Source: Actinoplanes nipponensis
GTDB lineage: Bacteria > Actinomycetota > Actinomycetes > Mycobacteriales > Micromonosporaceae
Direction of reading: 5' to 3'
Assembly: GCF_016862275.1 (NCBI RefSeq)
Contig: NZ_BOMQ01000032.1
Span: forward strand, 1 to 64,000
Length of the DNA: 64,000 bases
The position numbers and the translations under genes are program-made. The stretch's first letter is position 1; every line of letters starts with the position of its first letter. The notes beneath the pieces are model-generated. The model ran no database searches. It was not told the DNA's origin and saw only the letters and a list, made by a program, of their open reading frames with translations. Positions 24,781 through 54,468 of the stretch are shown in pieces.

Positions 24781-26061
24781 TCACCCCAGCAGGCCGGCGT
24801 CCCGGGCCCCGCGCAGCGACGGCTTGATCCGGTGGGTGGGCCCGACCTGGCCGGCCACGGCGTCCAGTGTCTTGAGACCCTCGCCGGTGTTGTAGACGAC
24901 GGTCTCCTTCTCCGGGTCGAGCTTGCCGCTGGCCACCAGCTTCTTCAGCACCGCCACGGTGACGCCGCCCGCGGTCTCGGCGAAGACGCCGGTGGTGCGG
25001 GCGAGCAGCTGGATGGCGTCGCGGATCTCGTCGTCGTCGGCGTAGTCCATCCAGCCGCCGGTGCGGCTCACGGCCTCGATGGCGTACGCGCCGGCCGCCG
25101 GGTCGCCGATGTTGAGCGACTTGGCGATGCCGGTCGGCTTCACCGGGATGATCTGGTCGGTGCCGTTGTGCAGCGCGGTGGCGATGGGGTTGCAGCCGGC
25201 CGACTGGGCGCCGAAGACGGTCCAGCCGCCCTCGGGGGCCTCCACCAGCCCGATCTCCACCAGCTCGGCGAACGCCTTGTCGATCTTGGTGAGCAGCTCG
25301 CCGCTGGCCATCGGCACGACCACCTGGGCCGGGATCCGCCAGCCGAGCTGCTCGGCCACCTCGTAACCCAGCGTCTTCGAACCCTCGGCGTAGAACGGCC
25401 GGACGTTGACGTTGACGAAGGCGGTGTCCTCGAACTCGTCGGTCTCGACCAGTTCACCGCAGAGCCGGTTCACGTCGTCGTAGGAGCCGTCGATGGCCAC
25501 CAGGTCGCCGCCGTACACCGCGGTGGTGATGACCTTGCCCTGCTCGAGGTCGCCGGGGATGAACACGATCGAGGGCACCCCGGCCCGGGCGGCGTGCGCG
25601 GCCACGGAGTTGGCCAGGTTGCCGGTCGAGGCGCAGGCGAAGCGGGTGAAGCCCAGCTCCCGGGCGGCGGTCAGGGCCACCGACACGACCCGGTCCTTGA
25701 ACGAGTGGGTCGGGTTGGCCGAGTCGTCCTTGACCCACAGCGGCGCCCGCAGGCCGACCTCGGCGGCCAGCGCCCCGGCGGCGACCAGCGGGGTCAGGCC
25801 CGGATCGAGGGTGACGCGGGTGGCCGGGTCCTGGCCGGTGGGCAGCAGGGCGGCGTAGCGCCAGATGTTCTGCGGGCCGGCCTCGATCTGCTCGCGGGTG
25901 ACCGCGGCCAGCGCGGCGGCGTCGTAGGCGACCTCGAGGGGGCCGAAACACTCGTAACACGCGTGCTGCGCGGCCAGCGGGAACTCGGCGCCGCAACCAC
26001 GGCAGACGAGGGCCCGGGCGGGGCTGGTGGACTGGCGGGGGGCGTCGACGGTGGACGTCAC
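24781..26061 (-). CDS. thrC: threonine synthase
   Basis: PLP-dependent conversion of O-phosphohomoserine to threonine, 426 aa. An N-terminal zinc-ribbon-like Cys4 element (CRGCG near residue 20 and CYECF near 35) precedes the fold-type II core. PLP-lysine motif SANPTHSFKDR lies near 115-125 and the phosphate-binding STGNLANS near 145. GGDLVAIDGSYDDV and the late ETAGGVTVAVLKKL block fit class 1 threonine synthases. GTG 26061 is fixed by AAGGAG 7 nt upstream, and that ribosome site directly follows the SAM-I riboswitch. Because phosphohomoserine is the branch point to methionine in related pathways, SAM control makes metabolic sense. An upstream frame extension to 26130 would run into the riboswitch and is rejected. 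Confidence 0.95.
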   Translation of the reverse strand: MTSTVDAPRQSTSPARALVCRGCGAEFPLAAQHACYECFGPLEVAYDAAALAAVTREQIEAGPQNIWRYAALLPTGQDPATRVTLDPGLTPLVAAGALAAEVGLRAPLWVKDDSANPTHSFKDRVVSVALTAARELGFTRFACASTGNLANSVAAHAARAGVPSIVFIPGDLEQGKVITTAVYGGDLVAIDGSYDDVNRLCGELVETDEFEDTAFVNVNVRPFYAEGSKTLGYEVAEQLGWRIPAQVVVPMASGELLTKIDKAFAELVEIGLVEAPEGGWTVFGAQSAGCNPIATALHNGTDQIIPVKPTGIAKSLNIGDPAAGAYAIEAVSRTGGWMDYADDDEIRDAIQLLARTTGVFAETAGGVTVAVLKKLVASGKLDPEKETVVYNTGEGLKTLDAVAGQVGPTHRIKPSLRGARDAGLLG

Positions 26062-26074
26062 AATGAGGCTCCTT

Positions 26075-26209
26075 CTCATCTTTCCCCGGCGTCGGTGGAC
26101 GCTCGCGGGGACGGAATTAGCACCTGCCACACGGTGGGCCTCGCCATCGAGACATGTGTGGTGGTTGCCGGGGCGTCATCGGGCCGTTCCCTCAGCCCCT
26201 CTGGATGAG
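26075..26209 (-). ncRNA. SAM-I (S-box) riboswitch upstream of thrC
   Basis: Read on the minus strand, the element starts CTCATCCAGAGGGG, continues GCTGAGGGA, ACGGCCCGATGA and CCCCGGCAACC, then GGTGCTAATTCC, and closes with AAAGATGAG. These are the conserved S-box blocks in the right order, with a P1 helix CTCATC/GATGAG (26204-26209 with 26075-26080). The thrC Shine-Dalgarno AAGGAG (26069-26074) abuts the 3' strand of P1. No terminator hairpin separates them, so control is probably at translation initiation. Confidence 0.93.
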
Positions 26210-26304
26210 GTATTCAGTTGTGACCCTCACCTTACGGGGTGACCGCCGAAAGCGCTGCCGACGATCCCGAGGTGTGAGCTTCAGCTCGCGCACAGGGTGA
26301 CGGC

Positions 26305-27294
26305 GTGAGCGCCGTCCTCGAGATCCAGGGGTTACGCAAGACGTACCGGAGCCGGCGCGGGGTCCGCCGGGCCCTCGACGGCTTCGACATGGCCGTCGAG
26401 GCCGGGCAGGTGCACGGCTTCCTCGGCCCCAACGGCAGCGGCAAGACCACCACCCTGCGCACGCTGCTCGGCCTGATCAAGGCCGACGGCGGCCGGATGA
26501 GCCTGCTCGGCCGGGCGGTGCCGCAGGCGCTGCCCGAGGTGGCCGGCCAGGTCGGCGCGATCGTGGAGAGCCCGCAGTTCTTCGGCAACTTCTCCGCCCG
26601 CGACACCCTCTCGCTGCTGGCCGACGCGGGCGGCGTGCCGCAGTCCCGGGTCGCCGAGGTGCTCGAGCTGGTCGGGTTGCGCGACCGGGCCGGCGAGAGG
26701 GTCAAGACGTACTCGCTGGGCCTGAAGCAGCGGCTGGCGGTCGGGTCCGCGCTGCTCAAGAACCCGCGGCTGCTGATCCTGGACGAGCCGGCGAACGGCC
26801 TGGACCCCGGCGGCATCCGGGAGATGCGCACGCTGATGCGCACCCTGGCCGGGTCGGGCATGACGGTGCTGCTCTCCAGCCACATCCTCGGCGAGATCCA
26901 GCTGATCTGCGACTCCGTCACGATCATCTCGGCCGGGCGGCGGGTCGCCGCCGGCACCGTCGCCGACGTGCTGGCCCGGCACGCCACCTCCGCGGTCCGG
27001 GTCCGCGTCGAGTCGGTCGCCGACCTGACCAGCTCGGCGGGCGCCCTGCGCGAGATCGGCGCCCGGGTCTCGGTCGAGCCGGACCACCTCGTGGTCGGCG
27101 GCATCGCCCAGCCCGGCGCGATCACCCGTACGCTCGCCGCCCGCGGCATCTACGTCAGCGAGCTGGCCCCGGTCGCGGTCGACCTGGAGAGCGTCTTCCT
27201 CGAACTCACCGGCACCACGCCGGTCGAGGGCGAGCACCGCCAGGTGGACCAGTCCACCGCGACGCCGGCGGTCCACGGCGGGTGGGGTCAGTGA
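26305..27294 (+). CDS. ABC-2 type exporter ATP-binding protein
   Basis: Cytoplasmic ATPase of a BcrA/drug-export type ABC system, 329 aa. Walker A is GPNGSGKTTT (near residue 42). The signature is YSLGLKQRL in place of the usual LSGGQ. Walker B is LLILDEPANGLDP and the switch His is in LLSSHIL. The extra C-terminal 100 residues are typical of this subfamily. The GTG start follows CAGGGT by 6 nt. Its stop overlaps the permease start in GTGA, so the two are translationally coupled. The substrate is unknown; family members export lipids or antibiotics. Confidence 0.9.
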   Translation: MSAVLEIQGLRKTYRSRRGVRRALDGFDMAVEAGQVHGFLGPNGSGKTTTLRTLLGLIKADGGRMSLLGRAVPQALPEVAGQVGAIVESPQFFGNFSARDTLSLLADAGGVPQSRVAEVLELVGLRDRAGERVKTYSLGLKQRLAVGSALLKNPRLLILDEPANGLDPGGIREMRTLMRTLAGSGMTVLLSSHILGEIQLICDSVTIISAGRRVAAGTVADVLARHATSAVRVRVESVADLTSSAGALREIGARVSVEPDHLVVGGIAQPGAITRTLAARGIYVSELAPVAVDLESVFLELTGTTPVEGEHRQVDQSTATPAVHGGWGQ

Positions 27295-54386: not shown

Positions 54387-54468
54387 GACGGCGTGTGGCT
54401 CACCACACGGTTCCTCCCACTCGGATCGTCCGGCACGTTCCTGCCGGTGGAAAGGAAGTCGGTTCACC

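Follow-up and report, generated by a model that had tools for sequence, protein, structure and literature searches.

A SAM-I riboswitch abutting the ribosome-binding site of a 'threonine synthase' gene that is very probably metM in Actinoplanes nipponensis

A SAM-I riboswitch in front of a gene labelled 'threonine synthase' raises the question of why SAM should govern the synthesis of threonine. We analysed such a locus within a 64,000-nt stretch of Actinoplanes nipponensis DNA (contig NZ_BOMQ01000032.1, positions 1 to 64,000), hereafter the window. An earlier note, made from the sequence alone, had proposed that SAM switches the competing threonine branch at this locus and had left the sign of the control open.

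The aptamer, its layout and its conservation

A cmscan of the whole 64,000-nt window against all of Rfam gave three matches above the cut-off, RF00162 (SAM-I) among them. The S-box core that the earlier note had recognised before the gene on the minus strand was borne out by this search, with a significant Infernal match over the full model at 74.4 bits against a gathering score of 44.4 bits. No other RF00162 match turned up in the genome (8.95 Mb) among the 150 candidates scored out of the 380 that a first look had given. Elsewhere in the window, an msiK RNA motif (RF01747) was present at 54404-54460 on the plus strand (46.6 bits). The features of the SAM-I locus are as follows.

24781..26061, minus strand: metM orthologue of 426 aa, a PLP-dependent enzyme with the generic label 'threonine synthase' (profiles, orthology, tree)
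26062..26067, minus strand: CTCATT, which can pair with the P1 3' strand over six pairs (anti-P1 hairpin with the Shine-Dalgarno sequence in its loop; script)
26069..26074, minus strand: Shine-Dalgarno sequence AAGGAG, 0 nt after P1 and 7 nt before the start codon (sequence, script)
26073..26211, minus strand: SAM-I (S-box) aptamer, RF00162, 74.4 bits, E 1.4e-15, model positions 1-108
26075..26080, minus strand: P1 3' strand GATGAG, P1 having six pairs (Rfam alignment and sequence)
26204..26209, minus strand: P1 5' strand CTCATC (Rfam alignment and sequence)
26217..26221, minus strand: leader sequence ACAAC, on the 5' side of the aptamer match at a distance of 10 nt
26229..26234, minus strand: TAAGGT, a possible -10 box (TANNNT) judged from the sequence

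The Shine-Dalgarno (SD) sequence directly follows the 3' strand of P1 (26074-26069 after 26080-26075), as had been proposed, and the GTG start codon of metM at 26061 lies 13 nt beyond P1. As the earlier note had stated, a terminator helix was not seen: a terminator scan of 25900-26400 found no intrinsic terminator, and the spacing of 13 nt is too short for one to fit between P1 and GTG. Translational control, which the same note had suggested, is probable, with the SD sequence abutting P1 and no terminator found. The start codon lies within the 15 nt after the end of P1 that Barrick and Breaker set as their criterion for direct translation control. The accessible portion of their paper (2007, PMC2258182) describes SAM-I riboswitches with the ribosome-binding site within the 3' side of P1 ('direct translation attenuation'), and the window shares this layout in its SD sequence at the end of P1, the short distance to the start codon and the lack of a detected terminator; the anti-P1 hairpin is a feature of the window and is not mentioned in that portion. 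According to the accessible part of Seliverstov et al. (2005, PMC1262725), riboswitch base stems directly overlap the initiation site only in Actinobacteria, and conserved RNA structures were not reported there before actinobacterial methionine or threonine operons.

The layout was compared at 100 first-ranked SAM-I loci: that of the window, 31 more from its family (Micromonosporaceae) and 68 from the class sample beyond that family. Sixty of the 99 further loci came from two lists, each contributing its 30 best-scoring entries, and the rest were picked across families; the best-scoring aptamers are over-represented, and the loci are related, so that the counts are not independent. The comparison covered SAM-I copies of families other than f2, with second copies taken from Micromonosporaceae. 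A metM orthologue (56-88% identical) was found downstream at all 100 loci. In line with the leader survey that the earlier note had suggested, RF00162 was present in at least 116 of the 121 Micromonosporaceae genomes, and its first-ranked copy was located upstream of metM in 31 of 31 further loci. Named genomes yielded at least 593 orthologous metM loci, of which the 80 best were taken (the nearest being from Nucisporomicrobium and Actinoplanes). An S-box core pattern, sought up to 400 nt upstream with two substitutions allowed and counted without a chance control, was present in 79 of them; the 80th is cut by a contig end.

The linkers between aptamer and gene were similarly uniform. A script assigned the start codons, in some loci (e.g., L032) doubtfully. 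Two loci were dropped (a run of N and a shifted start), leaving 98, and one more had no recognised SD sequence, leaving 97. The start codon followed P1 at a median of 14.5 nt (5-95% range 10-19, extremes 8-20; 98 loci). The SD sequence overlapped P1 in 26 and abutted it in 23 of the 97 loci (49 in all), began 1-3 nt past P1 in 39 and 4-6 nt past it in 9, and was thus no more than 3 nt after P1 in 88. With the SD sequence and start codon so near P1, a terminator or an additional hairpin for sequestration could hardly be accommodated.

A sigma-70 promoter scan around the window leader found no promoter. In 55 of the 100 loci, against 4.0 expected from shuffling, the 25 nt preceding the aptamer contained the sequence ACAAC, and in 52 of those 55 it lay at 10-15 nt; a TANNNT box was located within 18 nt upstream of ACAAC in 33 of the 55 (a raw count without control). 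ACAAC is probably a conserved 5' end of the transcript. A seven-pair helix, GTCACAA/TTGTGAC, joining the probable transcript start to the start codon was set aside, as by eye it was present in the window only and not in its relatives.

The second SAM-I copies of Micromonosporaceae genomes had other genes downstream, with metM in none of eight. In seven genomes (L124, L126-L131) the second aptamer was shorter (about 90 nt), and in six of the seven it was followed by ORFs resembling a polar amino-acid ABC transporter (substrate-binding protein, permease and ATPase); the transporter profiles were run on L129 only, and in L128 the permease alone passed the filter. The gap between aptamer and transporter in L129 held a small ORF similar to Cys-rich leader peptides (NF042934, 22.3 bits, under the cut-off of 27), which possibly reflects control by SAM and cysteine in tandem. 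In L125, the second SAM-I copy was located directly 5' of a gene that by eye is GNAT-like, and its GATGAG ran into the ribosome site.

The gene under the aptamer

The window protein scored 239.9 bits against TIGR00260 (thrC; cut-off 167.1), a profile that fails to separate the MetM group from ThrC. The canonical ThrC of the same genome (L009, contig C84) is a protein of 349 aa that scored 313.7 bits with this profile and whose gene adjoins hom; the two proteins are 34% identical and are products of two different genes. They have the PLP fold (PF00291) and the TIGR00260 label in common. Unlike MetM, the hom-linked ThrC lacks (by eye) the N-terminal stretch with four cysteines, which were invariant (C20, C23, C35, C38) in 20 of 20 aligned MetM proteins, and the hom-linked thrC type, unlike metM, was downstream of none of the examined SAM-I copies. 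Fourteen named Streptomyces orthologues, used for this comparison rather than S. albulus MetM itself, shared 58-59% identity with the window protein. In the tree it was placed among the MetM rows, together with Micromonosporaceae members; the two ThrC-type rows formed very long branches, and only the place of the window protein among the MetM rows is readable. Three other clear relatives of the window protein were found in its own genome (E 3e-45 to 1e-34), the hom-linked ThrC being one of them. Two further threonine-synthase-like paralogues were noted at L008:4390-5616 (C89; PRK08197, 611 bits) and L010:3684-4802 (C51). The name thrC, given in the earlier note, holds as a generic annotation (TIGR00260) and fails as an identity, since the hom-linked thrC is a different gene. 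The 'threonine synthase' of the window is very probably metM, encoding a methionine-making enzyme.

Hasebe et al. (2024) reportedly described MetM, a Streptomyces homologue of threonine synthase that converts O-phosphohomoserine to homocysteine with the help of a sulfur carrier, MetO. The accessible part of PMC12172450, where that work is cited, describes Streptomyces MetM as a homocysteine synthase with O-phosphohomoserine as its substrate and, in S. albulus, a metO gene and a SAM riboswitch upstream of metM; in the window, too, a ThrC-like gene is preceded by a SAM riboswitch. Outside Micromonosporaceae, a ThiS-type carrier gene followed metM at 56 of 68 loci (27/30 and 29/38; two of the misses were truncated where their DNA stops), and among the best 80 of at least 593 named loci it did so at 36, including 14 of 14 from Streptomyces. 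This downstream ThiS-type gene matches the metM-metO arrangement of Streptomyces. A further parallel is provided by S. lividans TK24, for which Table 3 of PMC8079986, as far as that source was accessible, lists RF00162 before the two-gene unit SLIV_16930-SLIV_16925 under 'Threonine biosynthesis'; 21 of 22 RNA elements are given there as transcribed, a total for the set rather than a result per element. We infer that SLIV_16930 is metM. Its unit differs from the window locus, in which no carrier gene follows metM.

The methionine genes of the genome pointed in the same direction. Searches of the A. nipponensis genome gave only weak matches for MetX (best E 1e-6; by comparison, each of the 177 MetX-positive genomes had a match with E below 1e-75), and no MetA was found there. 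Across 296 genomes of the class, MetX was present in 85 of the 94 without SAM-I versus 92 of the 202 with SAM-I. Presence was called at E <= 1e-60, six genomes with intermediate values of about 1e-39 to 1e-48 (G019, G053, G136, G172, G201 and G208) being counted as lacking MetX; the SAM-I and MetX surveys used strict filters or a limited number of matches, and absence in them is no proof. Because MetX matches are weak and no MetA was found in this genome, and because MetX is rarer in genomes with SAM-I, metM is very probably the organism's route to homocysteine. Control by SAM is to be expected of a gene that belongs to the methionine branch, and in the case of metM it very probably amounts to plain end-product feedback.

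The proposal that SAM controls the competing threonine branch was accordingly rejected: a separate thrC exists beside hom, and the gene under the aptamer is a paralogue of the metM type. It could still be argued that this gene encodes a second, real threonine synthase and that SAM represses or activates threonine synthesis through it. The TIGR00260 score above cut-off and the filing of the S. lividans operon under threonine biosynthesis both lean that way, as does a cyanobacterial relative, 51.6% identical to S. albulus MetM, which shows both threonine synthase and deaminase activity and, in the cell, was judged to fall short of full MetM function (PMC12172450, accessible part). Set against these are the hom-linked thrC, the lack of a convincing MetX and of any detected MetA, and the ThiS-type gene beside most orthologues outside Micromonosporaceae, which together make a second threonine synthase improbable.

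Anti-P1 pairing and the sign of the switch

The best explanation that we can offer starts from the aptamer, its geometry and conservation, the orthology, the separate hom-linked thrC and the results for MetX and MetA. It is highly likely that the SAM-I switch controls the translation of metM, the presumed gene of an O-phosphohomoserine-using homocysteine synthase, and that P1, when closed by SAM, keeps the ribosome off. Plentiful SAM would bind the aptamer and hold P1 closed against the SD sequence; since the latter begins at the end of P1 and the start codon follows 13 nt on, the ribosome would be excluded, and less homocysteine and methionine would be made. At low SAM, P1 would open and its 3' strand would pair instead with CTCATT before the start codon, and this anti-P1 hairpin would leave the SD sequence in its loop and allow metM to be translated.

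The predicted anti-P1 pairing exceeded chance. Its score in the window was 13, compared to 7.3 for shuffled linkers. The mean over 98 loci was 10.83. Shuffled linkers averaged 7.11, with no replicate mean out of 200 exceeding 7.76, and sampling of the ribosome-binding regions of 110 other genes gave 8.30, with none out of 200 exceeding 8.89. A permutation control was weaker, GATGAG ranking 7 among its 60 permutations for fit to the linkers. The pairing was formed by lineage-specific sequences, such as GAGG/CCTC, GAGGA/TCCTC, ATGAGA/TCTCAT and AGCGAGA/TTTCGCT. Of 97 loci, 63 had the entire SD sequence in the loop of the anti-P1 hairpin, and in the other 34 some or all of it belonged to the stem. 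The literature listing indicates that anti-P1 helices have already been considered for the TPP riboswitches of E. coli.

Folding calculations gave two measures of accessibility. Opening the linker and start codon was on average 2.58 kcal/mol dearer without P1 than with it; the difference exceeded 0.5 kcal/mol in this direction in 80 of 98 loci and in the reverse direction in 9. For shuffled linkers the mean was 0.43 kcal/mol, with 49 of 98 dearer without P1 and 33 the reverse. The SD bases, on the other hand, were less open with P1 than without it in 56 of 97 loci and more open in 14, the window itself having an SD sequence that was more open with P1 (0.53 versus 0.32). Start codons showed no trend (33 loci more open with P1, 29 less). 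The two measures are opposite in direction, and base pairing alone would fit activation as well.

Activation would mean that, without SAM, the 3' strand of P1 hides the ribosome-binding site of the actinobacterial metM genes and that the SAM-closed P1 frees it, a layout that resembles the add adenine riboswitch. The above-chance anti-P1 pairing, the cost of opening without P1 and the more open SD sequence of the window with P1 are all compatible with such a switch. An end product that turns on its own synthesis makes little sense, however, and the position of the SD sequence wholly in the loop at 63 loci, the SD bases that are more open without P1 at 56 and the rank of GATGAG, only 7 among its 60 permutations, speak against it. 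Anti-P1 helices are also found in the E. coli TPP switches, which repress, and we know of no SAM-activated SAM-I switch. We regard activation as a slim prospect and repression as much the likelier sign. That the aptamer is a chance or decayed match without function is barely conceivable: the ligand-free minimum-energy fold of the leader differs from the aptamer fold (z -1.42), but the match spans the full model at 74.4 bits and recurs before metM throughout the first-ranked Micromonosporaceae loci examined.

The sulfur carrier and the meaning of the locus

The SAM riboswitch on metM has already been reported in related bacteria, and both the layout and, for S. lividans, the pairing with a gene that is probably metM are in print; less familiar are the competing P1 hairpin and the unlinked metO of Micromonosporaceae. 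Whereas S. albulus has a metO gene (PMC12172450, accessible part), none adjoins metM in the window or, as far as they were seen, at the other Micromonosporaceae loci, a point against the MetM reading. A ThiS search found no match on the contig of the window. An overlooked metO directly downstream of metM was considered and rejected, the 238-nt gap before the next gene holding one coding-strand ORF of at least 40 aa (53 aa). No metO-type gene followed metM within the approximately 2.9 kb seen in L084, the approximately 0.2 kb seen in 30 other Micromonosporaceae loci, or the stretches of up to 2.5 kb (8 nt in one case) seen in named loci of Micromonosporaceae, Glycomyces and Blastococcus.

Elsewhere in the A. 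nipponensis genome, a CysO-CysM-type pair on contig C69 (L011:1489-2774) was the only close metO relative found, and a weaker CysO-type relative (ThiS-like) was present on contig C77. Twelve genomes were compared. Four (family f20, taken as Streptomyces-like) had a metM-linked carrier and a separate CysO-type carrier, six from Micromonosporaceae had an unlinked carrier only, plus a weak relative in five, and two (family f19) had an unlinked carrier only. Because the Micromonosporaceae genomes showed only unlinked carriers, MetM may borrow CysO in this family. Our literature search, which left subscription papers mostly outside, returned no paper evidently on anti-P1 pairing in SAM-I or on the sulfur carrier of MetM, which Hasebe et al. 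(2024) may discuss.

With the gene assigned to metM, the apparent puzzle of SAM governing threonine synthesis is removed. The locus also exposes a labelling trap: a 'threonine synthase' under an S-box in many actinobacteria is probably the methionine enzyme MetM, and the conserved aptamer can be used as a marker of metM. For Micromonosporaceae, the missing metO raises the question of which protein supplies MetM with sulfur; CysO, the carrier used in cysteine synthesis, is perhaps the one.
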